DNA of 61,113 nucleotides from a bacterium (GTDB taxonomy: Bacteria; Verrucomicrobiota; Verrucomicrobiia; Limisphaerales; UBA11358). The notes beneath the pieces were generated by a model. It worked only from the letters and a program-made list of their open reading frames with translations. It did not search any database and had not been told where the DNA came from. Positions 10,762 to 43,316 of the stretch are shown here, one piece after another. How positions within the stretch are numbered: position 1 is the first letter of the stretch; the number at the start of each line of letters is the position of its first letter. The stretch covers positions 1-61,113 of the forward strand of contig JAKALA010000003.1 of NCBI GenBank assembly GCA_021813325.1, in the 5' to 3' direction. A program made the translations under genes and the position numbers.

Positions 10762-10972
10762 ATTGTCATTCAAAATCATCTACGAATGGAGGGCATGATA
10801 GGCCAAAAGGTTTCACGTGAACATGACATGAAATGGCCACAAGCCGGCCCCGCGAACTTTGGCTTGAACCGCGTAACGGATGAGCGCCACAACCCCGGAA
10901 ACGCGATCAATGGAATCCGCCGCCGGAGACGCGAATTTCCACGGGTGAGGTTTTCGGCAGAACGCGCGGTCT

Positions 10973-11891: not shown

Positions 11892-14804
11892 TTAAACGGT
11901 CGGCTTGATGCAATCCTCCGTCACCAGCTTTTGTAGGTCAGGATAAATTTTTGGCACGCCGGGGGCGGTGACGGGTTCGCCGCGCTCGATCTTGGCGGCG
12001 ACTTCCAGGTTCAGGGCGAGGAGTTGGGCCAGCAAATCCTTCTTGGCGCTGAAGCCGTAGGCGGCGAGCACGGCGGCGTCCAGCGCGGCGTGGGCGTCCT
12101 TGAGCGGATTGGCGCCGGGCAATTCGAGCGTGCGATAGAGGGCGCGCAAGCCGCCTTTCAGATTTTGCAACGCCTCGGCGCGCACGCGGCGCACCTCCCG
12201 CGCGGCGGCGGCCACGGCGTCAATCTGCTTTACCGTCGCCGCCGGCGGCCACGGGAAGGTGTTCCAAACTGCTTCACCGAAACGATAATCCGATTTTAAT
12301 TTCGAGCAGGTTGTCTGAAACCAATGCCAATGTATATCGGATGACAAAACTCCAAAGCTGTAGTCGTCTGCGAGGGTGAACACCTGGAGCAAATTGCTCG
12401 GTCGCACTTCTGAACTGACAAAGACGAAGATGGGGCGTTTGCTGACAAGGGAAATGACGAGGTAACGCGGCAACTTCCTGATGAGGGACACCAGTTCTGG
12501 GCGACCAAATGAGAGCTGCCACCAGCGCGATAAAAAAGCTCTGTGGTGAGGACGCACGTTGCCGTCCTTATCAACACCCTCCTTCGCTTTGCGTTCGCGG
12601 TCGGGCAGAACTTTAGTTTTCACCCAATCGAAAGCACCACTGTAAACAGCAGCTTCGAGTTGGTTCTTCGTCTCGAAGTCCAAGACGAAGCGATCCGGTA
12701 TTCCTCCAGTTAACATTTCGTCCCCGTTGAGGTAGGGAAAGATCACACTGGCAGACGTCGTATCTTTCGTAACAATTGCGGCTCTTTGCTCATCTGTGAG
12801 AAGAAATCCTTTGTGACCGAGCATCTGTCCGTTAAATGAAAGCGGCGGCTCAAGATTGCACTGGAGCGTTTTTGCACCTGTCACGTCTGTTTCGTCTGAC
12901 AAAGCTGCATTGATTACATCGCACTCGCGGCAATCGAGTTCGTAATCTGTGACTGCCTGGCCGCTGCGTTTGCGGAGCTTTTTTGCGCCTGCAGTTGGCG
13001 CGACCTTGAACCACAGCTTGCGCGTCTTCGGAAGAAGCATTGCATCCTGTGTCTTCGCCCAATTGGCTATTGAAACATGAACTTTGGCTTCGCCCGACCA
13101 CGGCTGATTGTCCACAGCTTCCACAATCGTTCCGTCTTTCACGACATGGTCGAGTCCGCCCACGCGCGATTGGTTGTTGCGGATGTTTTGCGTGCCGACG
13201 AGTCCAGCGCGTCCGGCAACTGGATCGGCGGCGGTGCAAGCGGCTAGATGGTCGTGCGCTTTACGAATCCAATAGACGCAGTAATCCGCCATGCCCGGCA
13301 CTTCGGCATAAGCTTTGCGCAACGTGTTCACATAGTCCGGGCCACGTTCTGGTTTCAGAAGCTTTGCGCCAAGGAACGGCGGATTGCCGATGATGACATC
13401 GGCCTTGGGCCATGGCGCGGGCAAACCTTCGGGCGTGAGCAGCGCGTCGGCGGCAATGAAATTCTGGTCAAGGTTGTCGAGCGGCAGGGCTTTTTCGGTG
13501 ATGTGCAGTTCGTCAATGGCCAGTTTGCGGCCGATCATCATGGTGACTTTGGCGATCTCTACGGCAAAGGGCAGGATGTCCAGCCCGTAAAAGTTTTGCG
13601 CGCTGAGGAAGCTGAACGGCATCTGGGCGGCCTGCTTGGCGTCGGTCTTGAATTCGGCGCGCAGGCGTTCGAAGATGCGGGCCTCCAGCCGTTTCATTTC
13701 GCGATAGGCGATGTAGAGGAAGTTGCCGGAGCCGCAGGCGGGATCGAGCACGCGGTAATCGTGCATGCGGTGGAGAAGTTCATTCAGCCGGGTGCGCGTT
13801 TTGGCGCCTTCAATCTGTTCCCGCCACGGTTCCACGATGGTGGGCCCGACAATTTTCATGATGTCGGACGGATGCGTGAAGTGCGCGCCAAAGGCGTGCC
13901 GCTCCTTTTCATCCATGGAATGCTGGAAGAGGGTGCCGAAGACTTCGGGCTGCACCTTGGACCAGTCAAATTTGGCGCATTGGCGGAGCAGGACGAGTTC
14001 CTGATCGTGCAATTCCAGCCGGGCCGGGTCGCGGAACAGGCCGCCGTTGAAATAGCTGACGCCCTTGAACCGGCCGCCGGACTTGGGCGGGTTGGTGTTC
14101 ATGGCCTCGAACAGTCCGCCGATGAGGTCGTAGGCGCTGGCGGGCGTGCTGCAATCTTCCAAGATCTGGGTGACGAAATATTTGGGCAGCAGGTCAATGT
14201 CCTCGGCGAACAGGGCGACGAGCATTTGGAGGATGAACCGCTGGGCATCCGGCTGGGGCACGCCGCGTTTCACCAGCTTGCGGAAACATTCGGCGAGGCA
14301 ATCGGCGGCTTCGCGGGTGACTTTCTCGCGGTCGTTCTCGAAATGCGGATGGGGATTGCCGGGGGCGAGGAAGGCAAGCGGGCCCCAGCGCCCGGGCAGA
14401 TCTTTCAGCGCGAGGGTGTCCTTGGGCGTGTCGAGGTCGGTGTCGAAATCATAGACGCGGAATTCGTCGAAGTTGCAGAGCACGACGTAGCGCGGGCGGT
14501 TGGGCACGAGGCGCGTCCAGTAATCGAACGCCTGGCGATAATGTTTCTGGAGATTTTCGCCGCGCTTTTTCATTTCGATCAGCACGACGGGTTTCCAGAC
14601 GTAATCGGCAAAGGCGGTGCCGCCGCCGTCTTCCTTATCCTTGCGGATGCGAAATTCCGTGGTGCCGCCCACATCCAGACAACCCGGCTGGCCGAAGGCT
14701 TGGAAGAGACGATCCAAGAAGATTTGCGCCTGGCCTTTTTCGTCGCCGGTGATGTGTTTCCCGCACCAGGCGACGAATTCAACAAGTTTGGTCCCGTCCG
14801 GCAT
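11892..14804 (-). CDS. MmeI-like (type IIL/IIG) fused restriction endonuclease-methyltransferase
   Basis: A single polypeptide that methylates and cuts foreign DNA. It has 970 residues, close to MmeI family size. The N-terminal nuclease site is visible as FADYVWKPVVLIEMKK: Asp67 ... Glu77-Met-Lys79, a PD-(D/E)xK core. The gamma-class N6-adenine methyltransferase domain carries motif I LDPACGSGNFLYIAY (about residue 352) and motif IV IIGNPPFLG (about 471). A target-recognition domain and helical C-terminus follow. The start MPDGTKLVEFVAWCGKH at 14804 is chosen because the frame further upstream is antisense to the IS4 transposase fragment. The gene looks intact. Confidence 0.88.
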   Translation of the reverse strand: MPDGTKLVEFVAWCGKHITGDEKGQAQIFLDRLFQAFGQPGCLDVGGTTEFRIRKDKEDGGGTAFADYVWKPVVLIEMKKRGENLQKHYRQAFDYWTRLVPNRPRYVVLCNFDEFRVYDFDTDLDTPKDTLALKDLPGRWGPLAFLAPGNPHPHFENDREKVTREAADCLAECFRKLVKRGVPQPDAQRFILQMLVALFAEDIDLLPKYFVTQILEDCSTPASAYDLIGGLFEAMNTNPPKSGGRFKGVSYFNGGLFRDPARLELHDQELVLLRQCAKFDWSKVQPEVFGTLFQHSMDEKERHAFGAHFTHPSDIMKIVGPTIVEPWREQIEGAKTRTRLNELLHRMHDYRVLDPACGSGNFLYIAYREMKRLEARIFERLRAEFKTDAKQAAQMPFSFLSAQNFYGLDILPFAVEIAKVTMMIGRKLAIDELHITEKALPLDNLDQNFIAADALLTPEGLPAPWPKADVIIGNPPFLGAKLLKPERGPDYVNTLRKAYAEVPGMADYCVYWIRKAHDHLAACTAADPVAGRAGLVGTQNIRNNQSRVGGLDHVVKDGTIVEAVDNQPWSGEAKVHVSIANWAKTQDAMLLPKTRKLWFKVAPTAGAKKLRKRSGQAVTDYELDCRECDVINAALSDETDVTGAKTLQCNLEPPLSFNGQMLGHKGFLLTDEQRAAIVTKDTTSASVIFPYLNGDEMLTGGIPDRFVLDFETKNQLEAAVYSGAFDWVKTKVLPDRERKAKEGVDKDGNVRPHHRAFLSRWWQLSFGRPELVSLIRKLPRYLVISLVSKRPIFVFVSSEVRPSNLLQVFTLADDYSFGVLSSDIHWHWFQTTCSKLKSDYRFGEAVWNTFPWPPAATVKQIDAVAAAAREVRRVRAEALQNLKGGLRALYRTLELPGANPLKDAHAALDAAVLAAYGFSAKKDLLAQLLALNLEVAAKIERGEPVTAPGVPKIYPDLQKLVTEDCIKPTV

Positions 14805-14830
14805 GGGCGGAAGCTTAAATGCGGAATCTG

Positions 14831-15647
14831 ATGCCGGCAAGTGGAAGCGCACAGAGCTTTGGACTCCACGACCATCGATTTGTCGCTCACACTCTTTCCG
14901 TGGGCCGACTTCCGCCGCACCAAGGCGGGTATCAAACTGCACACCCAAGTCGATTTGCGCGGCCCGATTCCCACCTGCCTTCACATCACGGGTGCCCGCC
15001 AGCACGACGTGCGCTGGCTCGACGAACTGGTCTTCGAACCGGGAGCCTTTTATGTGATCGATCACGGTTACCTGGATTTCAAGCGGCTGGACTTGATCGC
15101 CCGTGCCGGTGCGTTCTTTGTCACGCGGGCCAAAGACAACCTGCGCTTTTCCCGCCTGCGCTCGCTGCCGGTGCCTGCCGCCGCCGGGCGCAGCGATCAG
15201 ATTGGCCGACCCACTTTGGCCCAAGCGCGAGCGGCCTTCCCGTCGCGCTTGCGAAGAGTTGGTTACTTCGACGCCCAGACCCAACGGCGTTTGATCTTTC
15301 TGACCAACCAACTCGAAATCCCGGCGCTGACGGTGGCACTGCTTTACCGTCTGCGCTGGCGCATCGAGTTGTTCTTTCGTTGGATCAAAGGCCACTTGCG
15401 AATCAAGCATGACTACGGAACCAGTCCCACCGCCGTGAAAACCCAAATCTGGATTGCCATCGCCGGCTACCTGATGGTCGCCATCCTGCACAAGTAGTTG
15501 AACCTGCCCGGAACATTGCACAGAACTTTGCAACTTCTGAGCGTTCACCCTTTTGAGAAAGTGCCTTTGCATGAGCTGTTTACAGCATCAGAGTTCAAAA
15601 TGCCGCCAACCAACAGCGACAACCAATTATTGTTGTTGGACTTATGA
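14831..15647 (+). mobile_element. IS4-family transposase remnant (5' truncated, nonsense-broken)
   Basis: The frame begins abruptly at the first catalytic segment, ALDSTTIDLSLTLFPWADFR. It continues with FYVIDHGYLDFKRLDL (second Asp) and RLRWRIELFFRWIKGHLRIK (YREK-type Glu region). An in-frame TAG at 15495-15497 interrupts it. The same frame then continues with typical C-terminal residues (FEKVPLHELFTASEFK ... NQLLLLDL) to TGA at 15645-15647. The N-terminal ~130 residues and left end are missing at the boundary with the MmeI-like gene. No terminal inverted repeat was identified. Confidence 0.88.
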
Positions 15648-15795: not shown

Positions 15796-16512
15796 ATGAC
15801 TATCACGTTGTTCATCCCGTGCTTCGTGGACGCGCTGTATCCGCGCGCCGGCATCAGCATGGTGGAAATCCTCGAACGCCTCGGGCATGGCGTCATGTGC
15901 CCGGAGGACATCGCCTGCTGCGGCCAGCCGCCGTTCAATTCCGGTTATCATGACGAAGCCCGCGCCATCGCCACGCCCGTGCTGGAAAAACTAAAAGACG
16001 CCGAGGCTGTGGTCATCGGCTCCGGATCCTGCGGCGCCATGGTCAAAAAGTTTTATCCCGAGCTGTTCGCCGGCACACGTCATGAAACTGCCGCCAAAGA
16101 ACTTTCCACCAAGACCTGGGAATTTTCGGATTTTCTGGTCAGCAAACTGGGCGTGACCGATCTCGGTGCGACGTTTCCGCACAAGGTTACCTTTCACGAC
16201 GGCTGCCACGGCCTGCGCGAACTGGGCATTCACAAACAGCCGCGAGCGTTGTTGTCCCGCGTCGCCGGATTGGAATTGGTGGAAATGAGCGAAGTTTCCT
16301 GCTGCGGGTTCGGCGGCACATTTGCCGCGAAATTCCCGATGATTTCCACCGCCATGGGCGAAGTAAAGTGCGCCACCGCCACCGAAACCGGCGCGGAATA
16401 CATTGTCTCCAACGATTCGAGCTGCCTGATGCACATCCAAGGGTTGCTCTCGCGTCAGGGCAAGCTGATCAAGACCCTTCATCTCGCCGAAGTCTTAAAC
16501 ACAAAACGATAA
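15796..16512 (+). CDS. LutA/YkgE-like CCG-domain (Fe-S) oxidoreductase subunit
   Basis: 238 residues, the size of LutA, with two cysteine-rich CCG domains: ACCGQPPFNSGY near residue 41 and SCCGFGGTFAAKFP near 170, plus HDGCHGLRELG between them. These domains bind an Fe-S cluster in heterodisulfide reductase-type and lactate-utilisation enzymes. LutB and LutC are absent next to it. Instead it lies upstream of PduS/PduT-like genes, so a role as electron-transfer partner there is a reasonable inference. Confidence 0.85.
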   Translation: MTITLFIPCFVDALYPRAGISMVEILERLGHGVMCPEDIACCGQPPFNSGYHDEARAIATPVLEKLKDAEAVVIGSGSCGAMVKKFYPELFAGTRHETAAKELSTKTWEFSDFLVSKLGVTDLGATFPHKVTFHDGCHGLRELGIHKQPRALLSRVAGLELVEMSEVSCCGFGGTFAAKFPMISTAMGEVKCATATETGAEYIVSNDSSCLMHIQGLLSRQGKLIKTLHLAEVLNTKR

Positions 16513-16608: not shown

Positions 16609-16914
16609 GTGCTTGGTTTTGGGTTTCTCGAAAAGGTCTATCAGCGCGCCATGCAGACCGAATTAAAACTGCGTGGGATTAAAGCCGAGCTGGAGCCAAA
16701 AATTCAGGTTCAGTTCACAGGTGTGATCGTGGGGGATTACGCAGCGGATTTGTTGGTGGCTGATAAAATTATCGTCGAGCTAAAGACCGACGCTGTTTAT
16801 CAAACGACGCATGAAGCCCAGTTGTTGAATGAGCTGCGCGGCACCGGTTTCAGGCTGGGATATTTGATCAACTTTGGCCGTGAGCGCGTGGAATATAAAC
16901 GAATGGTCTTTTGA
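16609..16914 (+). CDS. GxxExxY family protein, N-terminus possibly lost
   Basis: 101 residues from the GTG at 16609, starting at the family's GFGFLEKVY signature and including AADLLVADKIIVELKT and GYLINFGRERVEYKRMV. The function of GxxExxY proteins is not known; the fold is thought to be nuclease-like. In-frame codons just upstream encode LVGAAHEVHN, which is part of the conserved family N-terminus, but a TGA at about 16574 cuts them off. The gene may therefore be 5' damaged or may use a shortened start. Confidence 0.7.
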   Translation: MLGFGFLEKVYQRAMQTELKLRGIKAELEPKIQVQFTGVIVGDYAADLLVADKIIVELKTDAVYQTTHEAQLLNELRGTGFRLGYLINFGRERVEYKRMVF

Positions 16915-16967
16915 AAAATCTGTGTTTTATTTATGTTCATCTGTGGCCAAGAAAAATTAAATTTAAC

Positions 16968-18281
16968 ATGAAGCTCGCAGACAAAGTCAGGCTGGCCGGC
17001 GTCGTGGGCGCGGGCGGTGGTGGTTTTCCCACGCACGTCAAGCTCGGGGCCAAGGCGGAAGTCGTCATCGCCAACGGTGCCGAATGCGAGCCGCTTTTGC
17101 ACAAGGACGCCGTCACGATGGAAGAAAGCGCCGCCGAAATGGTGCGCGGCATGCAACTCGCCATCGAAGCCGTTGGCGCGCGCGAAGGCGTTGTCGGTGT
17201 AAAAGCGAAGAAAAAGCGCGCGGTGGAAGCCGCCCAAGCCGCGTGCAAGGGCACCAACGTCCGCGTGCAATTACTGGGCGATTATTATCCCGCCGGCGAC
17301 GAATACGACCTGGTTTACAATGTCACCGGCAAATTGATTCCGCCCGGGGGCATTCCCATCGCGGTCGGCGCGGTGGTCAACAACGTGGAGACATTTGTGA
17401 ACATTGCTCGCGCAAATGTCGGCGTGCCGCTTACGCACAAAATGCTCACCATTGCTGGCGCGGTGAAATCGCCCTGCACGTTGCGTGTGCCCATTGGCAC
17501 CACGTTCCGGCAATGCGTCGAAGCCGCCGGCGGACTGGACACGAACGATCCGGTCCTGTGCATCGGCGGTTTGATGATGGGCAGCACGTCTGACGATCTC
17601 GATTTGCCGGTTACCAAGACCACCACCGGCATCATCATTTTGCCGCGCACCCATCACACCATCGAGCGCAAGCTCAAGCCGGCCAAGCAGCAGGCCGCCA
17701 TCGGCAAATCCGCGTGCGATCAATGCCGCTATTGCACGGAATTCTGCCCGCGATTTTTGCTGGGTTATGCTGTCGAGCCGCATCAGGTCATGCGCACGCT
17801 CGCCTTCACCGGCGCCGGCGAAGATTATTTCAGCCAATGGGCGGCGATGTGTTGTTCCTGCGGTTTGTGCACGCTCTATTCCTGCCCGGAAGAATTGTTC
17901 CCGAAAGAAGCTTGCGACGATGCCAAAGCGGTCATGCGCGCCAAGCAGATCAAGTGGACCGGCCCGATGAATCCCAAAGTTCACGCCATGGCGGATGGCC
18001 GCCGCGTGCCGATCAAGACACTCGCGAAAAAACTGCACGTGCTCGATTACGATCTGCCCGCCCCGTATCTGCGTCAGGACATTTCACCTGGCCGCTTGGT
18101 GTTGCCGCTCAAGCAAAGCGCTGGCACGCCTTGCCTTGCCAAGGTGAATGCCGGTGACCGCGTGGGCGCCGGACAGGTCATTGGTGAGCCTGCGCCAAAT
18201 GCGCTGGGCGCGATTTTGCACGCGCCCATGGCTGGCGCGGTGCGTGAAGTGAACGAGAAACAAATCATTTTGGAGAGATAA
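16968..18281 (+). CDS. PduS-like / RnfC-type iron-sulfur flavoprotein
   Basis: 437 residues, the length of PduS, the corrinoid reductase of propanediol-degrading microcompartments. It has the glycine-rich FMN/NADH-binding start AGVVGAGGGGFPTHVKL (about residues 10-26), the RnfC-type ANGAECEPLL, an SLBB segment, and two 4Fe-4S motifs: CDQCRYCTEFCPR (about 245) and CCSCGLCTLYSCPEELF (about 292). The start is the ATG at 16968 matching family N-termini; earlier in-frame codons are spacer. It is followed by the shell-protein gene after 4 bp, as in pduS-pduT. Confidence 0.9.
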   Translation: MKLADKVRLAGVVGAGGGGFPTHVKLGAKAEVVIANGAECEPLLHKDAVTMEESAAEMVRGMQLAIEAVGAREGVVGVKAKKKRAVEAAQAACKGTNVRVQLLGDYYPAGDEYDLVYNVTGKLIPPGGIPIAVGAVVNNVETFVNIARANVGVPLTHKMLTIAGAVKSPCTLRVPIGTTFRQCVEAAGGLDTNDPVLCIGGLMMGSTSDDLDLPVTKTTTGIIILPRTHHTIERKLKPAKQQAAIGKSACDQCRYCTEFCPRFLLGYAVEPHQVMRTLAFTGAGEDYFSQWAAMCCSCGLCTLYSCPEELFPKEACDDAKAVMRAKQIKWTGPMNPKVHAMADGRRVPIKTLAKKLHVLDYDLPAPYLRQDISPGRLVLPLKQSAGTPCLAKVNAGDRVGAGQVIGEPAPNALGAILHAPMAGAVREVNEKQIILER

Positions 18282-18285
18282 TTTT

Positions 18286-18837
18286 ATGGCCGATAAATCT
18301 GTAGGATTGATTGAACTGTCAAGCATTGCCGCCGGTTTCATGGTGGCCGACACGATGCTTAAAGCCGGCAATGTGCGCCTGATTTTGTCGCGCTCAATTT
18401 GCTCCGGCAAATACATGGTGCTGATTGGCGGCGATACGGCGGCGGTGACTTCCGCGGTCGATGCGGGCTGCGAAGCGGCGGGCGGTTGTTTGATCGACAG
18501 CTTTGTCATTCCCAATTTGCATCCGGATGTCTTTGTGGCACTGGGCCGCACCCAGCCGGCGGAGCCGAATGGCGCATTGGGCGTCATCGAGTCATTCAAC
18601 GTGGCCACGCTCATTCAAGCCGCTGACGCGGTGGCGAAAACTTCGGATGTGCAATTGCTCGAAGTCCGCCTAGCCATGGCGATGGGCGGGAAAGCCTTTT
18701 GCTCCATGACCGGCGATGTGTCATCCGTGCAGGCGGGCGTGGCATCCGGACGGAAGGTGCTGGCCGATGCGGGGGTGCTGGTGAATGCCGTGGTGATTTC
18801 GCGCCCGCACCCGGATGTGTATCGCGAAGTGATTTGA
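18286..18837 (+). CDS. PduT-like tandem-BMC shell protein
   Basis: 183 residues with two BMC domains: SVGLIELSSIAAGFMVADTM at the start and ALGVIESFNVATLIQAADAV at about residue 97. This is a BMC-T protein that forms pseudohexameric trimers in microcompartment shells. Cys39 in SRSICSGKYM corresponds by position to the PduT pore cysteine that holds a 4Fe-4S cluster. A good GGAG lies 11 nt upstream of the ATG. Together with the PduS-like protein it could carry electrons across a shell. No other shell gene is in the window. Confidence 0.92.
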   Translation: MADKSVGLIELSSIAAGFMVADTMLKAGNVRLILSRSICSGKYMVLIGGDTAAVTSAVDAGCEAAGGCLIDSFVIPNLHPDVFVALGRTQPAEPNGALGVIESFNVATLIQAADAVAKTSDVQLLEVRLAMAMGGKAFCSMTGDVSSVQAGVASGRKVLADAGVLVNAVVISRPHPDVYREVI

Positions 18838-18892
18838 TTGCCGCCGGTGAGAGCGCTTGTCGCGCCGTGGCGTTTGCAGCAGAATCCGGTTC

Positions 18893-20362
18893 ATGCGACC
18901 GCGAACTTTCAGCAAAATTTTCCCGCCGTTGCTTTGCCTCCCGGTTTGGGCGGGGTTGTTGCTCGGTCTAGGCGGAAATTGTTTATCCGCGAAAGACACG
19001 CCGGTGGAGGATACCAACAGCCTTCCGCAGATGGATTGGCGGATGGAGGCGACGAATCATCTCGGGCAATGGATTTGGGATACAAACGCTTTTGACAAGC
19101 AAACGGTGCGGCTCTGGAAATCTTTCGAGGTGCCTTCCGGCAGACCGGTCGCCCGCGCGACGTTGCGGCTGACGGCGGACAACGGCTATACGCTGTTTTT
19201 GGATGGCGAGGAAATCGGGCGCGGCAGCGATTGGCGGACGGTGTCGGAATATGACATCACCCAGTTGCTGCCCCCTGGACGGCATGTGCTGGGGGTGGAA
19301 GCGTTCAACGACCGGCTGGAAGGCGGCTTGATTTTTGGGATGACCATGGAGCAGCCGGGGCATGATGAAATGCAACTGTTATCCGATGACAATTGGTGGA
19401 TCGTGCCTGCCAATGGAAAAAATCCCCGCGCGTGGCCCGCTAAGGTGCAGCCCGGCTGGCACCACGCGATCGTGGTGGGATCGTTTCAAACGCCGCCGTG
19501 GGTGGATTGGCCCCGGGGCTTGGCCAAGGTGCCGCCCCTGCAGCCGGTGCAAATGCATTTCTGGCAGCGTGGCTGGTTTCAATTGTCGCTGCTGGGGCTT
19601 TGCCTTTCCGCGCTGCTGTTTTCCCTGCGCTTGACCATGCAATTGACGGCGCAGTCCAAGGCGCAACAGGTTTTGCACGTGGAGCGAATTCGCATTGCCC
19701 GCGACATCCATGACGATCTCGGCGCGCAATTGACGCAATTGCTTCTGTTGGGCGAAGTGGCTCAACGCGAACAACCGGCGAACTCCGCGGCGCGCGGGCA
19801 GTTTTCCCAAATCTGCGATCGCGCCCGCGAGCTGGCCCACGCCATGGATGAAGTCGTCTGGGCGGTGAACGCGCGGCGCGACACGGTGCGCGACTTCAGC
19901 AGCTACGTATGCAAATACGCCCAAATGTTTTTGAACGCCACCAGCATCCGCTGCCGGCTGGATGTGGAGCCGGAGCTGCCGGCCCTGGCGTTTGATCTGC
20001 CGGTGCGCCGGAATTTGTTTCTGGCGGTCAAGGAAGCGTTGAACAACGCGGCCAAATATTCCCAGGCCAAGGAACTGTATGTCCGCATCTTTTTGCGGGA
20101 ACGGACCCTGTCGGTGGCGGTGGAAGATGATGGCTGCGGCTTTGATCCGGAAGCTGCCGGGGCCGGTCGGAACGGGCTGGCCAACATGCGCCAGCGCATG
20201 CAGGAGATTGGCGGGACGTTTCAAGTGTCCAGCCAGCCGGGTGATGGCTGTCTGGTGGTGTTTACGGTGCCGGTGCTTCCGGCGCGCCGCCGGTGGTTCC
20301 GCCGGAGCCAGCCAGAAACTATTTCCGGTTTTCCGGAAGAACCGGGACGGCAAAATTTATGA
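18893..20362 (+). CDS. NarL-type sensor histidine kinase with rhamnosidase-like sensor domain
   Basis: 489 residues from the ATG at 18893. Signal-anchor region first, then a periplasmic domain of about 180 residues with QWIWDTNAF, VRLWKSFEVP, LRLTADNGYTLFLDGEEIG and HVLGVEAFND. This matches the N-terminal beta-sandwich found in alpha-L-rhamnosidases. One transmembrane segment follows (WFQLSLLGLCLSALLFSL), then HisKA_3 with ERIRIARDIHDDLGAQL (phospho-His) and a HATPase_c domain (VKEALNNAAKYS, DDGCGFDPE, GLANMRQRM). The stop overlaps the response regulator start (ATGA). It probably senses a plant- or algal-type glycan. Confidence 0.88.
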   Translation: MRPRTFSKIFPPLLCLPVWAGLLLGLGGNCLSAKDTPVEDTNSLPQMDWRMEATNHLGQWIWDTNAFDKQTVRLWKSFEVPSGRPVARATLRLTADNGYTLFLDGEEIGRGSDWRTVSEYDITQLLPPGRHVLGVEAFNDRLEGGLIFGMTMEQPGHDEMQLLSDDNWWIVPANGKNPRAWPAKVQPGWHHAIVVGSFQTPPWVDWPRGLAKVPPLQPVQMHFWQRGWFQLSLLGLCLSALLFSLRLTMQLTAQSKAQQVLHVERIRIARDIHDDLGAQLTQLLLLGEVAQREQPANSAARGQFSQICDRARELAHAMDEVVWAVNARRDTVRDFSSYVCKYAQMFLNATSIRCRLDVEPELPALAFDLPVRRNLFLAVKEALNNAAKYSQAKELYVRIFLRERTLSVAVEDDGCGFDPEAAGAGRNGLANMRQRMQEIGGTFQVSSQPGDGCLVVFTVPVLPARRRWFRRSQPETISGFPEEPGRQNL

Positions 20363-21036
20363 ATTCAGTTAAAACAAACTTGGCCGCAACGTCAGGCTCC
20401 CGGCCTTTGGTCAAGGTGGCCCTGGTGGAAGACAAACCCGGAGTGCGCGACAGTTGGGTCAAACTGATCGATTCGCTGGACGGCTTTGTTTGCGTGCAAA
20501 CCTGCGTATCAGGCGAAGATGCCTTGCGGGTGATTCCGGCCATCAAGCCGGATGTGGTGTTGATGGATATTTTCCTGCCGCGCATGTCCGGCATTGAATG
20601 CACGGCGCGGTTGAAGTCGGAATTGCCCAAACTTCAGATTCTCATGCTGACGGCCGTGGAGGATGACGAACTGGTGTTCATGGCGTTGCAGGCCGGCGCG
20701 GACGGCTATTTGTTGAAACGCACCAAGCCGGAAGATTTGAAGGCGGCGATGCTGGATGTTTTGGGTGGCGGCGCGCCGATGACCAGCGAAATCGCCCGCC
20801 GCGTGGTGGAGTCGTTTCGCCGGGCCGGCAAACCGGCCAAGCTGGACGTGCGGCTCAGCGCGCGGGAGGAGGAGGTGCTGATTCTGCTTTCCAAAGGCTA
20901 TTCCAACAAGGAAATCGCCAGCCAATTGAGCATTGGCGTGGAAACGGTCAGCAGCCATCTGAAGCACATCTACGAAAAATTGCATGTGCGGTCGCGGGCG
21001 GAGGCGGTGGCGCGCTATATGACGGGAAAAGCGTAA
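20359..21036 (+). CDS. NarL/FixJ-family response regulator
   Basis: 225 residues, translationally coupled to the kinase through an ATGA overlap. The receiver domain has the acidic pair (ALVEDKPG), the phospho-acceptor Asp in VVLMDIFLPRMSG and the Lys in GYLLKRTKPEDL. The C-terminal LuxR-type helix-turn-helix runs LSAREEEVLILLSKGYSNKE ... TVSSHLKHIYEKLHVRSRAE. Likely targets are the surface genes immediately downstream, two of which carry a shared 17-bp site. Confidence 0.93.
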   Translation: MNSVKTNLAATSGSRPLVKVALVEDKPGVRDSWVKLIDSLDGFVCVQTCVSGEDALRVIPAIKPDVVLMDIFLPRMSGIECTARLKSELPKLQILMLTAVEDDELVFMALQAGADGYLLKRTKPEDLKAAMLDVLGGGAPMTSEIARRVVESFRRAGKPAKLDVRLSAREEEVLILLSKGYSNKEIASQLSIGVETVSSHLKHIYEKLHVRSRAEAVARYMTGKA

Positions 21037-21065
21037 CGTCGCGGATGCTGAATGCGGGGTTAGCA

Positions 21066-21082
21066 TCCCATGATTGGGGGAT
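21066..21082 (+). promoter_or_regulatory. Shared 17-bp site, copy 1 (upstream of PEP-CTERM gene)
   Basis: TCCCATGATTGGGGGAT, 52 bp before the start codon at 21135. It is an interrupted inverted repeat (CATCCC ... GGGATG in the wider context). It matches the copy at 22261 in 16 of 17 positions. It is a candidate binding site for the adjacent LuxR-type regulator. Confidence 0.5.
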
Positions 21083-21134: not shown

Positions 21135-22151
21135 ATGAATCAACTACGTTCCAGTTTAAAACGTTCCCACGCCCTTTTATCCAGCCTCGCCTTGACTGCC
21201 GCGCTCGGCCTGCCTGCCGTTTCCCAGGCGCAGGTAGTGCTGACGGCCAATGATTCACTGGGCACCAGTTCGTTCAATTCGGCCGGTGGCTGGAGTCCGG
21301 CGGGCGTGCCAACTGCCGGGAGCACCTATTCCACGATGGGCTATTTGTTGCGGTCGCCCACCGCTGCGGGGAATTACACTTTTGCCGGCGATTCGTTGAC
21401 CGTGGGCGGCGGGTCGGGCGGCGGCACTTATTCCACCAGCACGGCGAACAACAACGCGCTGATTTTTAAAGCCAACAACGTGAATCTCACGGTGAATAAT
21501 TTGATCTTGGACGGTTCGCAGATTCGGGACGGACTTTCAGACAACAACACGGTTTCTTTAAACGGCAATCTCCAGGTTGCCGCCAATGGCGGGGCATTTA
21601 TGAATCAATGCCTGATTACCATCAACTCGGTCATCAGCGGCTCTGGTAACATCTACATCGGCGATAACGGCAACGGCAGCGCCGGACGGGCCACCATTTT
21701 CACGTCGGCGGCCAACACCTTCGCGGGCAACATCATTTTTAACAACACCCATGCCAGCGCGGGCTACAGCCGGCTGACTTTGGCGGGTGGCAGCCTGATG
21801 AATTTCATGATTGGCGCCAACGGCATTAACAATGGCATTTCAGGCATTGGAACCCTGACGTTGGATGGCAGCTTCAAAATCGATCTGACGGGGGCCGCGA
21901 CCACCATCGGCGATTCCTGGACGCTGGTGGATCAGTCTGCGGCGACGGTTTCCTATGGCAGCACCTTTAGCGTGAACGGTTTTACCGACCTGGGGGGCGG
22001 CCTTTGGGAAACGACCGTCAATGGCGCGCTTTACGAGTATAACACGGCCAGCGGCCTGCTCTCTGTGGTTCCCGTCCCCGAACCGTCGTCCATCGCCCTG
22101 ATCGGCATGGGGATCGCCGGCATCATTGCCGGTGTCCGCCGCAAAAAATAA
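21135..22151 (+). CDS. PEP-CTERM surface protein
   Basis: 338 residues from the ATG at 21135; the upstream in-frame extension is not needed. Signal peptide MNQLRSSLKR ... PAVSQA, then a Gly/Asn/Thr/Ser-rich parallel-beta-like body with a segment resembling autotransporter-associated strands (NTFAGNIIFNN, LTLAGGSL). The C-terminus has VPEPSSIALIGMG, a hydrophobic stretch and RRKK, a full exosortase sorting signal. A strong terminator follows. Its role is probably as an extracellular matrix or surface component; a specific function cannot be given. Confidence 0.9.
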   Translation: MNQLRSSLKRSHALLSSLALTAALGLPAVSQAQVVLTANDSLGTSSFNSAGGWSPAGVPTAGSTYSTMGYLLRSPTAAGNYTFAGDSLTVGGGSGGGTYSTSTANNNALIFKANNVNLTVNNLILDGSQIRDGLSDNNTVSLNGNLQVAANGGAFMNQCLITINSVISGSGNIYIGDNGNGSAGRATIFTSAANTFAGNIIFNNTHASAGYSRLTLAGGSLMNFMIGANGINNGISGIGTLTLDGSFKIDLTGAATTIGDSWTLVDQSAATVSYGSTFSVNGFTDLGGGLWETTVNGALYEYNTASGLLSVVPVPEPSSIALIGMGIAGIIAGVRRKK

Positions 22152-22180: not shown

Positions 22181-22208
22181 ACCGCCGCCCTCAAAGCGGC
22201 GGTTTTTC
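22181..22208 (+). terminator. Rho-independent terminator after PEP-CTERM gene
   Basis: An 8-bp perfect stem (accgccgc / gcggcggt) with a 7-nt loop, followed by TTTTTCTTTTT. It separates the PEP-CTERM gene from the large surface-protein gene. Confidence 0.85.
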
Positions 22209-22260
22209 TTTTTGCCCCGGCGGCGGATGCCGACGAAAGAATCCGCATTTTTGCAAAGCC

Positions 22261-22277
22261 TCCCGTGATTGGGGGAT
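22261..22277 (+). promoter_or_regulatory. Shared 17-bp site, copy 2 (upstream of giant surface protein)
   Basis: TCCCGTGATTGGGGGAT, 70 bp before the ATG at 22348, differing from the copy at 21066 by one base. Both copies lie at similar distances from their genes and in the same orientation, which supports a regulatory role. Confidence 0.5.
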
Positions 22278-22347: not shown

Positions 22348-25300
22348 ATGAAAAACCTGAAACTCCTCGGAGGGCTGCTGATGGCCGTGTTGCTGTCGGC
22401 GGACGCGGATGCCAACCTGGTCGGACCCTACACGCCCGATGCCCATACGCTTTTCCTGCTTCACTTTGATGAAACCGCCGGCGGCTCGGTCACCACCAAC
22501 GTGGGCCTCAAAGCCGGAAATTTTTATACCGTCACCAACACCACTTCCGGCAACGGTTTGTCGGCTCCGCCGCCCGTGACGACGCTGCTTGGCAATGCCG
22601 GCTACTCCGGTTTTGGCCGCGCGTTTTCCGGCACCAACACCGACGGATCATTCAACGGCCTGGCCGGATTCGACGGCAACAACAACGGCGCGTATGACGC
22701 CGACGTGCAGGGCGGCCCCGCCAGCGCGGATGCGATTGCCCTGACCAATTTGAACATCGGGTTGGGCGGCGCCACACCGTTCACGATTGAAGCGTTGATT
22801 TGCCCGACCAGCCTCAGCGCGAATCAGGAAATTTTGTGTTCCGATGACTACAACGGCACGCGCGGATTTCAATTCAAGATCACCAGCGCCGGCCAGTTGC
22901 AGTTTAACTTGATCCCCATCAGCGGCGGCAGCGTCGGCTTCCCCATTCCCACCACCGGCACCCACAAATTTGTGGCCGGAAGCTGGTATCACGTGGCGGC
23001 CGTCTATAACGGAACCGCGTTGAGTTTGTATTGGACGCAACTGGACCCGACCAACAACGTGGCCAACCTGCTGGGTTCGGTGAACGTGGCTTACACCTCG
23101 TCCTCACCCGCCGCGCCGCTGGTGATTGGCGGGGAAAACCGCGGCAGCGATCAGGAAAGTTTCCGTGGTTTGATTGACGAAGTGCGCATCAGCAGCGCGG
23201 CGCGGGCGGCCAATGGGATGCAGTTTTATTCGCCCACGGTGACCATCTCACCCAACCCGGCCTCGCAGAACGTGGATTACGGCCAATCCGTAACGTTTTC
23301 GGTGAATGCCGCGAGCCTGACCACGCTGGGCTATCAATGGCGTTTTAACGGCGCACCGATTCCCGGCGCGTCGGCTTTCGACACCAATGCTTCGAGCTAC
23401 ACCATCCCCGCCGTGACCCCGGCGGATGCCGGCTCTTATGATTGTGTGGTGACCAACATCAGCGGCAACGCTTCCACCAGTTCGCCGGCCATTCTGGTGG
23501 TGGGCGCGGCCAATTATCTGGTCCATCGCTACAGTTTTACCACGGACACTTCGGACAGCGTGGGCGGCGCCACCGGCACCAATTTTGGCGGCGCTTCTGT
23601 GAGCGGCGGACAGCTTGTTTTGGACGGCGCGTCGGGCAGCTACATGCAATTGCCTGGCGGCTTGTTCCAAGGTTTTCAGGCAGCCACCTTTGATTTTTGG
23701 GCCACGTTCGGGGTCAGCAGCGGCGATAACGCCCACGTATTTGATTTCGGCAACACCAATGGCGTGGCCTTGGGTGTGGCCGGGCAGCCGAACAATTATC
23801 TCTATTTCTCGCCGCATTCCGGCACGGTGAACCGGCTGACGGCCACGCCGGGCACGAGCGAATTTGAACAGACGGCTTCGTCCGCCGGCGTGCTCGATCA
23901 ACAGTCTGTGCATGTGACGTGCGTGATGGATCCCCCGCACGCGACGCTGGCCATTTACACCAACGGCGTGCTGGAAACGCTGCAGACCAATTATTCCGTT
24001 CCGTTCCTGTCGTTGAGCGATCAACTGGCCTACATCGGCCGGTCCTTGTGGTCGGAACTTCATTCTGATGCCTATCTGGCCGCCAACATTGATGAGTTCC
24101 GCATTTACAGCGGCGCGCTCAGCCCCAACAGCATTTTGCAAAGCGAAATTCTCGGCCCCGACAGTCTGCCGACTGACGGCCCGGTTCAATTGATCGCCCA
24201 GCCGGCGGACACTTCCATCCCGCAAGGTTTTCAGGTGACTTTGAGCGGCTTGGCTGCCGGCCGCGCTCCTTTTTCCTATCAATGGTTTGAGCAAGGCGCG
24301 CTGATTCCGGGGGCCACGAACCGTTCCTACACCTTCACGGCGGCGACCAGCCAGAACGGGCACCAATTCCAGCTCGTGGTCACCAACACGGTCGGCGGCG
24401 TGGATTATGTGGCCGCCAGCACCAACGCCACGCTGACCGTGCTGAATCCGCCCACCATCGCGTGGCTGGGCGGCGCCGGCAGCACGTGGGACACCAACGC
24501 GTTGAACTGGACCAACAGCATCAGCAAATCCGTGGTGGCGTTTCAAGCGTTCGACCAGGTGCTGTTTGACGATCGCGGCATTTCCCAGTCGTCGGTGGAC
24601 CTGCAGGCGGCCTTGAATCCGCTCACGTTGACGGTGGATTCCACTGTGAATTACACGCTGACCTCTTATGGCCCGAACGGTTCGCTCACCGGGCCGGGAA
24701 TCCTCGTCAAGAACAACTCCGGCACGCTGGTGCTTGATGTGGACAACGGCATGAGCGGGCCGGTGATCATTTCCAGCGGGGTGTTGCAGATTGGCAATTT
24801 TGACGCCTACGGTTCGCTCGGAACCGGATCGGTGACCAACAGTGCCAAACTGTCTTTTTCCCGGCTCGACAACGCTTTGGTGGTGCCGAATGAAATCCAC
24901 GGTTCCGGCAGCGTGAGCTACGACGGCGGCGGCACGGTGACCGTTTCCGGCACGAACGATTACACCGGCGGCACGCTGGTCAATTTGGGCATCGTCAACG
25001 TGCAAAACGCCTTCGGCCTGGGCGTCAGCAATACCGTGGCGACCGTGTCCAGCAGCGGCCAGATCTACGTCACGGCCAATGTGAATGTCTCCAAGCTGCT
25101 CACGCTAAACGGTAGCGGAATTGATGGCAATGGCAGCCTCCGCAAAGGCGGCGCCGGCCTCACCGTTTTGGACGCGCCCGTGAGCCTGGCCAGCGATGCG
25201 GCGATCAGCGTGGACGGCGGCGCGACCTTGAGCTTGAGCAACATTGTTTCCGGCAGTGCGGCCCTTTACGCGAACGGCAGCGGCACACTGGCGCTGAACC

Positions 25301-26451
25301 AGGCCGACAGCTACACCGGCGGCACGTTTGTCTCCGGGCCGGTGGTGAACGTGAATTCCAGCGGCGCGCTGGGCAATGGCCTGGTGACCTTCACCGGCGC
25401 CGGACGCCTCGTTTTGGGCGATGGCGTGACGCTTGCCAACCGGATGATTGCTTCAACCGTTTCACCGGGCGTGGCCACCGGCTTGATCATGGTCAACGAC
25501 AATACCAACGGGACGATTACGACCGTGAGCGGCCCGCTGGAATTCGATGTCACCGCCGCCAATGGCGGCAATTTTATGGGCCCCAACACCTCCGGCTATC
25601 TCAACATCACCGGCGGCATCACCAATCAGGCGACCGGCGTGGTCAGCTCGCGCAACGGACGCGTGCGGCTGTCCGGCGGCGGCGATTACACGAGCTTCGT
25701 GCTCAATCAAGGCACGCTTTCCCTCGGCGCGAACAATGGCCTTTCAACCAAGACCGCCCTGCAAATTGGCAGCTCCGGCGCCGCCACGTTTGATCTGAAC
25801 GGATACAACCAAACGCTGACGGGGCTGACCGATGGCGCCACCAATCCCAAGCTGGTGACCAACAGCGCCTCCGCGTTGGGCACGTTGACGCTGAATTTGA
25901 CGGCGGACAACACCTTCAGCGGAACCATCGCCGGGCCGCTCGCTTTGGTTCAAGGCGGCGGATTCGGCTTGAACCTTTCCGGCACCAACGCTTATACCGG
26001 GAACACCACCGTGAACGCCGGCTGGCTGGAACTGGCGCAACCCACGTTGGCGCGCAATTCCACGCTGACCCTGGCCAGCGGCACTTATGTGCAACTGGAT
26101 TTCTCGGCCACCAACCAGATCGCGGGCCTGGTGCTCAATGGCGTCAGCCAGCCCGCCGGATTATACCACGCCGGCAACACGCCCTACGTTGCCGGTGTCG
26201 GCAGCTTGCTCGTGGCTTCGCCGGTGGCCAGCAATCCAACCAACCTCGTGGCAACCGTCCGCGGCAACAACCTGGTCCTGAGCTGGCCGGCCGATCACAC
26301 GGGCTGGCTGCTCCAGGTGCAAACCAACTCGCTGGCCAACGGTCTGGGCACCAACTGGGTGGATGTCACCGGATCGGATTCGGTGAATTCCATGACCAAT
26401 GCGGTGAATCCCGCCAATGGCGCCGTGTTCTACCGCATGATCCTGCGTTAG
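22348..26451 (+). CDS. Giant LamG/Ig-like/autotransporter-repeat surface protein
   Basis: 1367 residues from the ATG MKNLKLLGGLL. A signal peptide is followed by a LamG/concanavalin-like domain (about 20-290, HFDETAGGS ... GLIDEVRISSAARA), an Ig-like domain (about 300-390, YQWRFNGAPIPGAS, DAGSYDCVVTNISG), a second LamG domain (about 390-600), a second Ig-like domain (about 615-700), and several autotransporter-associated beta-strand repeats (GSTWDTNALNW, GTLVLDVDN, LTLNLTADNTFSGTI). It ends in a ~65-residue module with SWPADHTGWLLQVQTN. It has no autotransporter barrel and no PEP-CTERM tail. It probably binds or displays glycans at the cell surface. Confidence 0.88.
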   Translation: MKNLKLLGGLLMAVLLSADADANLVGPYTPDAHTLFLLHFDETAGGSVTTNVGLKAGNFYTVTNTTSGNGLSAPPPVTTLLGNAGYSGFGRAFSGTNTDGSFNGLAGFDGNNNGAYDADVQGGPASADAIALTNLNIGLGGATPFTIEALICPTSLSANQEILCSDDYNGTRGFQFKITSAGQLQFNLIPISGGSVGFPIPTTGTHKFVAGSWYHVAAVYNGTALSLYWTQLDPTNNVANLLGSVNVAYTSSSPAAPLVIGGENRGSDQESFRGLIDEVRISSAARAANGMQFYSPTVTISPNPASQNVDYGQSVTFSVNAASLTTLGYQWRFNGAPIPGASAFDTNASSYTIPAVTPADAGSYDCVVTNISGNASTSSPAILVVGAANYLVHRYSFTTDTSDSVGGATGTNFGGASVSGGQLVLDGASGSYMQLPGGLFQGFQAATFDFWATFGVSSGDNAHVFDFGNTNGVALGVAGQPNNYLYFSPHSGTVNRLTATPGTSEFEQTASSAGVLDQQSVHVTCVMDPPHATLAIYTNGVLETLQTNYSVPFLSLSDQLAYIGRSLWSELHSDAYLAANIDEFRIYSGALSPNSILQSEILGPDSLPTDGPVQLIAQPADTSIPQGFQVTLSGLAAGRAPFSYQWFEQGALIPGATNRSYTFTAATSQNGHQFQLVVTNTVGGVDYVAASTNATLTVLNPPTIAWLGGAGSTWDTNALNWTNSISKSVVAFQAFDQVLFDDRGISQSSVDLQAALNPLTLTVDSTVNYTLTSYGPNGSLTGPGILVKNNSGTLVLDVDNGMSGPVIISSGVLQIGNFDAYGSLGTGSVTNSAKLSFSRLDNALVVPNEIHGSGSVSYDGGGTVTVSGTNDYTGGTLVNLGIVNVQNAFGLGVSNTVATVSSSGQIYVTANVNVSKLLTLNGSGIDGNGSLRKGGAGLTVLDAPVSLASDAAISVDGGATLSLSNIVSGSAALYANGSGTLALNQADSYTGGTFVSGPVVNVNSSGALGNGLVTFTGAGRLVLGDGVTLANRMIASTVSPGVATGLIMVNDNTNGTITTVSGPLEFDVTAANGGNFMGPNTSGYLNITGGITNQATGVVSSRNGRVRLSGGGDYTSFVLNQGTLSLGANNGLSTKTALQIGSSGAATFDLNGYNQTLTGLTDGATNPKLVTNSASALGTLTLNLTADNTFSGTIAGPLALVQGGGFGLNLSGTNAYTGNTTVNAGWLELAQPTLARNSTLTLASGTYVQLDFSATNQIAGLVLNGVSQPAGLYHAGNTPYVAGVGSLLVASPVASNPTNLVATVRGNNLVLSWPADHTGWLLQVQTNSLANGLGTNWVDVTGSDSVNSMTNAVNPANGAVFYRMILR

Positions 26452-26475
26452 GCTTGAACCCAATTCCATTTCCAA

Positions 26476-26514
26476 CGGGCGGGGCCTGGGGCTTCGCCCG
26501 GTGGCTGTTTTTTT
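26476..26514 (+). terminator. Probable terminator after the giant surface-protein gene
   Basis: CGGGCG and CGCCCG (stem extendable by CCA/TGG with bulges) enclose a GC-rich loop and are followed by a run of seven T. It ends only 14 nt before the prepilin start codon, so downstream expression needs read-through or a promoter inside the preceding gene. Confidence 0.6.
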
Positions 26515-26528
26515 GAAGTTTAATAACA

Positions 26529-27314
26529 ATGAAACAACGTATTCGTCACCGGTCATCCCCGGGCTTTACCTTGATTGAACTCCTCGTCGTCATCGCCATT
26601 ATCGCGATTCTGGCGGCCATGCTTCTGCCCGCGCTCGCCAGCGCCAAAGAGCGGGCCAAGCGGATTTCCTGCATGAACAATCTCCGCCAGGTTGGCGTGG
26701 CCAGCATCATGTATGCGGGTGACAACCGGGATGTTTTGATTCCGGCCGGCATGGTGAACGGTTCCACCGAACCGAATCACCCGTTCGAACTGGACACCGG
26801 CAGTCTGGAAACGTGGGCCTCGGTCGGACTAAAAGTGACCACCAACGGCCTCCCAAATTCGTGGTCCTGTCCCAACCGTCCGGGGCTGGCCAGCTTCAAC
26901 CCCGCGAACGGCGGACAATGGACGCTGGGCTACCAATATTTCGCCGGGTTCAAAACCTGGAAAAACAACCTCGGCGCCGTGCCGGCGGCCAGTCCGGTCA
27001 AGACGGCCTTGTCCAAGCCGTATTGGATGCTGGCCAGCGATGTGGTGCTCAACCGCACCGGCATTGGCTGGGCGAGCCAGGGCGGCGAGGTCTCTCCCAG
27101 CGGCTACTCCAATTTGCCCGCGCACCGGAACAAAAACGGATTGCCATCCGGCGGCAATGAAGTGTTCATCGACGGTTCCGCGCGCTGGGTGAAGGCGGCG
27201 GACATGGTCTATGTCACGTATGGCTGGGACGCCACCAAACAGTTTTATTTTTACCAGGAAAACCTGACCGCAGTCTTCGGCAAAAATGTCAGCGCACTGA
27301 CCAAAATAAAATAG
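26529..27314 (+). CDS. Verrucomicrobia-type prepilin-like (H-X9-DG style) protein
   Basis: 261 residues with a class III signal peptide: positively charged start, then [20 protein letters not shown], with cleavage expected after the Gly and Glu at +5. The [20 protein letters not shown] segment and the C-terminal [16 protein letters not shown] follow the pattern of the many solitary prepilin-like proteins of Planctomycetes and Verrucomicrobia. No pilus assembly or type II secretion genes are nearby. Its place within a polysaccharide operon suggests a secreted or surface-displayed accessory protein. Confidence 0.88.
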
Positions 27315-27381
27315 CCCGTTCCCGGCTTATGACTTCATGCAAATTCCCGGCGCGCGCGGCTTCCAAGGAGTTCAGGTCCTG

Positions 27382-30252: not shown

Positions 30253-30253
30253 C

Positions 30254-37314: not shown

Positions 37315-37354
37315 CGGCAAAAGGTGGACTTTGAAATTGCAAACGCTATTGTTC

Positions 37355-37371
37355 GGGGATGAAACATCCCC
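37355..37371. promoter_or_regulatory. Inverted repeat over the start codon of the second GH106 gene
   Basis: GGGGATG and CATCCCC form a perfect 7-bp stem with an AAA loop, and the ATG start codon lies in the left arm. In mRNA this hairpin would sequester the start. It may be a translational control element or chance in GC-rich DNA. Confidence 0.4.
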
Positions 37372-43048: not shown

Positions 43049-43170
43049 GGCTTTTAGAATATCAGTTGGCCGATGCCGGCAAAGGCGAAATCCCCGCGGA
43101 CAGCGGCAAAGATTCTGTGTGACGCTTGGGGGGTGGCTTGGTCTAAACACCGATCCGAGATGAAATTCTT

Positions 43171-43199
43171 TTGACGCGTTTGGGCAAACACGATAAATC
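43171..43199 (+). promoter_or_regulatory. Sigma70-type promoter of the export operon
   Basis: TTGACG (43171-43176) and TAAATC (43194-43199) are separated by exactly 17 nt in the divergent gap between the radical SAM gene and the TolC-like gene, about 110 nt before the latter's start codon. Confidence 0.45.
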
Positions 43200-43316
43200 A
43201 ATGCGATCCACATTTCGTTTGCTCGACCGCAACTTGTCAGCGATGACGGAGTTTAAAACAGGCAAAGCAGCGCTGGCGTGGTTTCACCGGGGATTTTTTC
43301 CGCGGACAGTAAACGA

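Follow-up and report, generated by a model that had tools for sequence, protein, structure and literature searches.

That a carbohydrate-binding module (CBM) or glycoside hydrolase (GH) module can act as an extracellular polysaccharide sensor is known from the RsgI anti-sigma receptors of Clostridium thermocellum, which, as passages of the paper on them relate, carry CBM3, PA14 and GH10 modules and control hydrolase genes (PMC4711584). In the hybrid two-component systems (HTCS) of glycan-degrading bacteria, according to passages of a second paper, a membrane kinase senses a glycan and controls hydrolase genes (PMC10766802). Here we describe a two-component system that resembles RsgI in the use of such a module over hydrolase genes, but is a kinase/regulator pair rather than an anti-sigma factor and draws on another CBM family, and that differs from HTCS in its separate kinase and regulator, its NarL-type regulator and its CBM67-type sensor. 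It is encoded at positions 18893-21036 of a 61,113-nucleotide stretch (the window, i.e., positions 1 to 61,113 of contig JAKALA010000003.1, assembly GCA_021813325.1) from a bacterium of the Limisphaerales. Our reading, to which we give a probability of roughly 0.7, is that its kinase is a sensor of methylpentose glycans that controls a rhamnosidase operon via its regulator and a palindromic DNA site, with ligand, phosphotransfer and DNA binding all putative. No description of a CBM67 histidine kinase was found in open-licence literature listings, which is not to say that none is in print. The pair and its parts are as follows.

18893-20362, forward strand: sensor histidine kinase, 489 residues from ATG (ORF list, Pfam, alignment, profile)
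19064-19507, forward strand: CBM67-type sensor core, kinase residues 58-205, alignment columns 22-169 (alignment, profile, AlphaFold2 (AF2), Foldseek)
19574-19639, forward strand: second transmembrane segment, residues about 228-249 (hydrophobic stretch read by eye in the translation)
19682-19864, forward strand: HisKA_3 dimerisation/phosphoacceptor domain, residues 264-324 (Pfam, over cut-off)
20009-20275, forward strand: HATPase_c domain, residues 373-461 (Pfam, over cut-off)
20359-21036, forward strand: NarL/LuxR-type response regulator, Response_reg and GerE (Pfam, both over cut-off)

A preliminary description of this DNA had recognised a two-component system here, and both open reading frames are found in place. 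The kinase consists, in order, of an N-terminal hydrophobic segment, a CBM67-type periplasmic domain of about 190 residues that ends at the second hydrophobic segment (about 228-249), this transmembrane segment itself, HisKA_3 and HATPase_c; with a Response_reg and GerE regulator beside it, the pair belongs to the HisKA_3/NarL two-component systems. The kinase is read from ATG 18893, a TTG upstream at 18857 being a possible alternative, and the likely phosphorylated histidine is presumably H273 in IARDIHDDLG, a role that we take from the motif. The likely ATG of the regulator (20359) overlaps the kinase stop TGA (20360-20362) in an ATGA coupling. An identity as HTCS was rejected, kinase and regulator being two open reading frames with this overlap and not one chain.

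The evidence for the sensor comes from profiles and from a predicted structure. Pfam finds nothing over cut-off in the window sensor (weakly Glyco_hydro_2_N, E 0.021). By phmmer against the PDB, the same sensor alone matches a Pleurotus ostreatus lectin (POL) at E 8e-14 and the GH78 rhamnosidase 2okx at E 1.7e-4, and a profile of 36 sensors matches POL at 2e-28 and the Streptomyces avermitilis rhamnosidase SaRha78A (3w5m) at a whole-sequence E of 1.1e-21, with the best stretch at 138-295, which we take to be its CBM67 module (domain D). The 36 come from 37 kinase-like frames chosen among the sensor matches listed, one frame (L044), in which the kinase was not called, having been left out. The AF2 model of the sensor (pLDDT 88.7, pTM 0.84) retrieved SaRha78A (3w5n/3w5m) at ranks 1-2 in Foldseek, the top E being 4e-10, followed directly by lectin entries, among them 6kc2, titled as a rhamnose complex; VIA-align gave Z 19-20 against both SaRha78A and the lectin (19.1 for the test of the CBM67 fold). 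On these model comparisons the sensor has the jelly-roll beta-sandwich fold of CBM67. The NCBIfam model rhamnosid_Stmyc, of SaRha78A type, picks up all 36 sensors at E 0.001 or below (the window sensor over profile positions 139-292), these matches being partial and far below the model's whole-protein cut-off. Two other assignments were rejected: Pfam Bac_rhamnosid_N, which matches 17/36 sensors at E up to 0.1, and a GH2-type domain, which matches 34/36 at E up to 0.1 and the window sensor at E 0.0041, below cut-off. Judged from sequence, the likeness to rhamnosidase and lectin domains is not due to chance, and sequence and model together identify the sensor as a CBM67 module (SaRha78A domain D) rather than the Pfam domain Bac_rhamnosid_N. 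The likeness of the periplasmic part to the N-terminal beta-sandwich of rhamnosidases, proposed in the preliminary description, is thus borne out by profile and fold, the AF2 model matching carbohydrate-binding beta-sandwiches of rhamnosidase and lectin rather than an unrelated fold.

The likeness to SaRha78A extends to single residues: kinase D96, N97, W114 and N139 stand opposite SaRha78A D179, N180, W203 and N228 (the SaRha78A numbers were counted by hand from a printed alignment, those of the kinase checked on the translation). Fujimoto and colleagues are said to have found in 2013 that D179 and N180 of SaRha78A bind Ca2+ and rhamnose, and we take them to be its Ca/rhamnose contacts, the match of the kinase being one of identity of aligned residues alone. 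Among the 36 sensors, the D96 position is D in 35/36 and H in one, and the N139 position N in 35/36 and H in one; the N97 position is N in 33/36 and D in the other three, and the W114 position is W in 33/36 and A in three, which are the GH43-like fusions of that set. The single sequence without the D96 equivalent is also the one without N139; this sensor (L055, G029:C103), with His at both positions, may have a changed or lost binding site. SaRha78A, like the kinase in sequence family, jelly-roll fold and the aligned D/N/W/N, differs in that its CBM67 is an accessory domain of an enzyme, whereas here it is the ectodomain of a histidine kinase. POL (6kbj, 6kc2, 6t1d) shares the fold and gives the best sequence score, but is a soluble fungal lectin with no signalling part, and its two repeats have DD for DN, and Phe or Tyr where the kinase has W114.

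Sensors of this kind are widespread in related genomes. The sensor query was matched in 48/59 genomes (the window's own and 58 relatives), including non-kinase copies in frames of about 1000 residues, and a scan of genome contigs with one peptide pattern, which begins with DN and is therefore uninformative on the conservation of D96/N97, gave 49 loci. Their labels are of Verrucomicrobia (subdivision 3, Limisphaerales, Pedosphaera, Verrucomicrobiales and two Methylacidimicrobium), with two plain 'bacterium' and three metagenome-assembled genomes (MAGs) of Planctomycetes. A kinase part follows the sensor in 46/49, including one Planctomycetaceae MAG that also has the regulator (L118); the exceptions are one locus that aligns only to residue 312 (L108) and two that show no kinase (L121, L122). 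Gene calling was by a simple script, which missed some regulators and also the kinases of L044, L094, L101, L105, L118 and L120, found by tblastn; with tblastn, 50/52 kinases have a regulator homologue next to them, the others being L043, at a contig end, and L064. A tree of 48 domains sets the 36 kinase sensors, as one group, apart from 12 copies from other, mostly longer frames, not all of them annotated as enzymes, with a support of 89/94 that lies below the tool's star level; six minus-strand non-kinase copies (L029-L034) were left out of it, and L035 and L036 had no match at the cut-off used.

Several kinases of the family carry an additional domain beside the CBM67 one. One, of 730 residues (L096:9143-11335), has CBM67 in tandem, reminiscent of the two repeats of POL. 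In five genomes an F5/8C and a GH43-like part precede CBM67 (L052:7454-10267, L058:9260-12049, L059:3592-6381, L087:8438-11245 and L089:8453-11245). The motifs RDP, DAT and EGP are invariant in 5/5 of these (D279, D395, E442), with a putative catalytic role, and the GH43 kinship rests on Pfam for L052, where BT_3657-like_N is over and Glyco_hydro_43 below cut-off. The AF2 model of this part has a pLDDT of 38.8, and no fold assignment was drawn from it; a PDB profile search with it, cut off at E 0.001, yielded stretches of F5/8C type and a single weak match to GH32 that spans 46 residues. In one genome a full-length WbsX-family domain (E 5.8e-49) stands before CBM67 in the kinase (L067:3868-7038), and WbsX-like genes lie near the kinase, and separate from it, in L112 and L114 (= L072).

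If the sensor reports a rhamnose-bearing substrate, its genes might be expected beside rhamnosidases, and the preliminary description had proposed a search for the same architecture near GH78/GH106 genes; the homologues are indeed enriched there. In eight genomes, a GH78 or GH106 gene lies within 5 kb of 10/21 CBM67 kinases and of 0/134 other listed HisKA_3 kinases, within 10 kb of 11/21 and 3/134, and within 20 kb of 14/21 and 6/134, where the comparison set is the best 150 of 184 HisKA_3 matches less 16 that were the CBM67 kinases' own (the 34 weakest being uncounted), distances run between start coordinates, and Fisher p-values are indicative only, contig ends and genome relatedness being uncorrected. 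Among the 39 genes of 150 residues or more that come first downstream on the same strand (from 52 loci), 14 have LamG_3, 12 PATR and 4 GH78 domains, and the first upstream genes (31) include 4 GH78, 3 GH106, 2 WbsX and 2 BMC. The two GH106 genes to which the preliminary description had pointed in the window are real, and lie about 13 and 16 kb beyond the regulator. They are the last two of six same-strand genes (22348-40538) separated by gaps of at most 77 bp or overlapping, and the region downstream of the pair reads as follows.

21065-21082, forward strand: operator candidate 1, ATCCCATGATTGGGGGAT, upstream of the PEP-CTERM gene
21135-22151, forward strand: PEP-CTERM protein gene (ORF listed from TTG 21102)
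22181-22213, forward strand: terminator-like hairpin (22181-22203) and its T tail, separating the PEP-CTERM gene from operator candidate 2
22260-22277, forward strand: operator candidate 2, CTCCCGTGATTGGGGGAT, upstream of the six-gene run
22348-26451, forward strand: LamG/Ig/PATR-repeat protein, first of the six-gene run (ORF listed from TTG 22333)
26529-27314, forward strand: prepilin-type N-methylation/DUF1559 protein
27337-30252, forward strand: 971-residue protein with F5/8 type C as its sole recognised domain, conserved in relatives' runs
30206-34027, forward strand: Glyco_hydro_cc, LamG and PATR protein
34024-37314, forward strand: GH106 alpha-L-rhamnosidase with an F5/8 type C domain (E 3.1e-177)
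37359-40538, forward strand: GH106 alpha-L-rhamnosidase, last gene of the run (E 3.1e-193)

The two operator candidates belong to a palindrome, AGCMTCCCnnnATTGGGGGAT (MTCCC-N8-GGGAT), common to nine regions that were hand-picked, either behind the regulator gene or ahead of the following unit, from eight loci of the clade to which the window's kinase belongs (the window clade), two of the regions being from the window. The dyad is exact in eight and has one half-site change in the ninth (L047, with CTCAC in place of MTCCC), and L045 has one spacer change. The commonest dyad is common to 8/9 regions, vs 3-5/9 in 60 random draws that sampled whole loci, not intergenic DNA alone. Outside the nine regions, L048 has the site, L039 is without it and the L043 locus stops short of the regulator. 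A search of the window's 4.28-Mb genome for MTCCCNTNTTTGGGGGAT with at most one mismatch returns the two window sites and nothing else; two mismatches admit ten further sites, and the reversed control gives two; in the window alone, a stricter pattern with three mismatches finds the same two sites, vs 0.24 expected, and 1/100 shuffles gave two. No sigma-70-type promoter was reported at either window site. An operator-like palindrome ahead of the run with the GH106 genes is a further link for a sensor that would report the GH106 substrate, rhamnose binding itself being putative.

Searches of other genomes gave the site the same company. The first form, MTCCCNTATTTGGGGGAT, with at most one mismatch, has 12 sites in 16 genomes, and a second-clade form, ATCMCCTGTTTCGGKGAT, has 15 in another 16, the reversed control giving 0 in each case. 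All 12 of the first form and 14/15 of the second lie within 12 kb of a CBM67 kinase or a GH78/GH106 gene, a distance that by rough arithmetic covers at most about 16% of genome G007 and less of G020, G006, G032 and G025; the GH places were a hand-copied part of the lists, which can only understate nearness. Of these sites, 7/12 and 7/15 had been seen previously; among the others the count is 5/5 for the first form and 7/8 for the second, the exception (G007:C308) being 24 kb from a GH78. A matrix scan gave 34 hits, training sites included, vs 0-10 for ten column-shuffled matrices. A loose palindrome, TC[AC]CC-N6-GG[GT]GA, which does not match the window's own sites, has 34 sites, 28 of them intergenic, in 870 kb that is about 11% intergenic, and eight rearranged patterns have 0-12 sites, 0-7 of them intergenic. 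The L055 locus carries this loose palindrome on both sides of its kinase-regulator pair. In genome G020, the window-clade kinase and its regulator are on contig C116, without operon genes and without the site, and contig C178, on which no CBM67 kinase is listed, has the homologues of the LamG/PATR, 971-residue and GH106 proteins in order, with the genome's only first-form site about 0.1 kb before the first of them, which favours a site that belongs to the operon and is acted on in trans.

A link of another kind is with microcompartments: a shell-protein gene lies directly before the kinase and is itself preceded by an RnfC-like gene.

16911-18281, forward strand: RnfC-like flavo-Fe-S protein, upstream of the shell protein
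18286-18837, forward strand: tandem-BMC shell protein directly upstream of the kinase (PF00936, 7.7e-44, over cut-off)

The best NCBIfam match of the shell protein is eut_PduT, below its cut-off, and we read the RnfC-like protein as PduS-like. Lactate is a product of the fucose/rhamnose microcompartment pathway, and a cysteine-rich (CCG) protein encoded near these genes at 15796-16512 on the forward strand resembles, below cut-off, the C-terminal part of the quinone L-lactate dehydrogenase LdhH. Microcompartment genes adjoin 4/10 window-clade kinases in the tree and 0/26 others, as seen in fetched stretches of 3-20 kb. The order is BMC-H and PduL facing DeoR, RnfC-like, tandem BMC, kinase and regulator in L040; PduL facing DeoR, then the kinase, in L043; and aldehyde dehydrogenase (AldDH), BMC-P, a small ORF, aldolase, kinase and regulator in L045. 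About 50 kb further along the window's contig (bases 61000-80999) is a core locus of DeoR, PduL, BMC-H, acetate kinase, BMC-P, AldDH and class II aldolase, so that class II aldolase, DeoR, acetate kinase, PduL and shell genes, which together mark the Planctomycetes-Verrucomicrobia (PVM) type of microcompartment, are present on the kinase's contig, separate from the two-component system. Together with AldDH, these genes, seen next to kinases of this kind or on this contig, fit the locus type that passages of PMC4207490 describe, and loci of this type degrade L-fucose and L-rhamnose according to passages of PMC4207490, PMC8857213 and PMC5615132. The microcompartment passages of PMC4207490, PMC8217296 and PMC8857213 make no mention of a CBM67 kinase; the term 'histidine kinase' is absent from the main texts of PMC8217296 and PMC8857213 and occurs once in that of PMC4207490, for another locus type.

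From these parts, we picture the kinase as an inner-membrane receptor for rhamnose-bearing (methylpentose) oligosaccharides that reach the periplasm, where its CBM67 domain would bind terminal L-rhamnose by way of a Ca2+ that D96/N97 hold, N139 lying close to this site. Ligand binding would alter the autokinase activity of the dimer through the transmembrane helix, phosphate would move from H273 to the NarL-type regulator, and the regulator would bind the palindrome ahead of two putative transcription units, the PEP-CTERM gene and the six-gene run; the sign of this control, and the reading of the run as a single transcript, are what we infer. Rhamnose freed by the enzymes may then be broken down via the fucose/rhamnose-type microcompartment whose genes lie beside the kinase and about 50 kb along the contig.

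Several observations weigh against this picture. A same-strand run with gaps of up to 77 bp is no proof of one transcript, and 7/21 CBM67 kinases have no GH78/GH106 gene within 20 kb, three of them being GH43-like fusions and some being on short contigs. Both sites of the window depart at two positions from the pattern of the relatives, and the loose palindrome has no intergenic copy in 33/52 loci. Genome G035 has a window-clade kinase, on a contig of 3 kb, and no first-form site, while G026, G008, G014 and G019 have other CBM67 kinases and no second-form site; the microcompartment stretch at bases 61000-80999 has no operator match at the score used. The remaining two points concern the sugar: the neighbours of the kinase in some loci are GH92, WbsX or GH127 genes, so specificity may differ by clade, and the lectin of the same fold has also been solved with GalNAc and melibiose, so that the fold does not fix the sugar. 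The sugar is for this reason the least certain step of the mechanism proposed.

These last points are also what speaks for the alternative that we take most seriously, although we consider it unlikely: the same receptor and circuit would serve another sugar, a galactose-type or other glycan end or one that depends on the clade, and the rhamnosidases would be part of a larger pectin or exopolysaccharide programme. The PDB entries of the lectin are titled with GalNAc, melibiose and rhamnose, and other clade members have GH92, WbsX and GH127 among their neighbours. Against this alternative, the run of the window clade has GH106, four kinases abut fucose/rhamnose-type microcompartment genes, and W114 with the D/N pair matches SaRha78A and not the lectin.

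Rather less probable is that the palindrome serves another regulator or a sigma factor, and that the two-component system controls something else. Binding of the palindrome by this regulator is a prediction from sequence, and the microcompartment loci have their own DeoR regulator. Against this, in most loci of the window clade the site lies behind the regulator gene, and in its first form it was not found in 5/5 relatives that were searched and for which no window-clade kinase is listed (G001, G003, G005, G018, G021). Moreover, the operator half-sites appear to change between clades alongside the recognition helix of the regulator, which is suggestive, with no statistic attached: a CHH or SHH helix tends to go with ATCCC half-sites, CSH is often found with at least one ATCAC half-site, and the window clade has GSH or SSH. 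His and Ser in the helix seem to go with ATCCC and ATCAC, respectively, in L049, L050, L053, L057, L065 and L102 vs L060, L070, L096, L110 and L119, L053 being mixed. As for a CBM67-like domain that no longer binds sugar and instead has a structural or dimerising role, or docks a binding protein which would be the true sugar receptor, sensor domains can lose ligand binding and the L055 sensor has H at both the D96 and the N139 positions, but we regard this as very improbable for the family: the putative ligand residues D96 and N139 are otherwise kept, and the one sequence that lacks the first also lacks the second, which is what a functional site would lead one to expect.

Other features of the window are incidental to this argument. 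Homologues of the 971-residue protein in relatives' runs are about 57-70% identical, and it is perhaps an undescribed enzyme. Terminator-like hairpins such as that after the PEP-CTERM gene are mildly over-represented in the region (39 vs 29.9, sd 5.3). On the reverse strand are a GH43 enzyme with a GH43_C2 domain, outside the six-gene run (9145-10779), an MmeI-type restriction-modification protein (11892-15572) and a B12-binding radical SAM protein with DUF4080 (41525-43213).

How Verrucomicrobia sense the polysaccharides that they degrade is, to our knowledge, poorly known. The system described here offers a concrete receptor together with its partner regulator, the likely class of ligand and the residues likely to bind it, a DNA site and predicted target genes, and sensing and regulon are therefore testable with purified parts; the CBM67 sensor could also be a new module for rhamnose reporters. 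More broadly, at what we would call even odds, the Limisphaerales (Verrucomicrobia subdivision 3) may have a family of polysaccharide receptors, one type of histidine kinase fitted with various carbohydrate-active modules, that fills the place of HTCS, with CBM67 alone, in tandem (one locus) or behind F5/8C and GH43-like parts (five genomes) or WbsX (one genome), each with a NarL-type regulator and a clade-specific operator before rhamnosidase or other glycan genes, and in the fused forms the enzyme domain may expose the ligand of CBM67. In the window clade, such a receptor would link the extracellular rhamnosidase operon to the methylpentose microcompartment, and so tie the breakdown of glycans outside the cell to the compartment that handles the lactaldehyde from methylpentoses within it.

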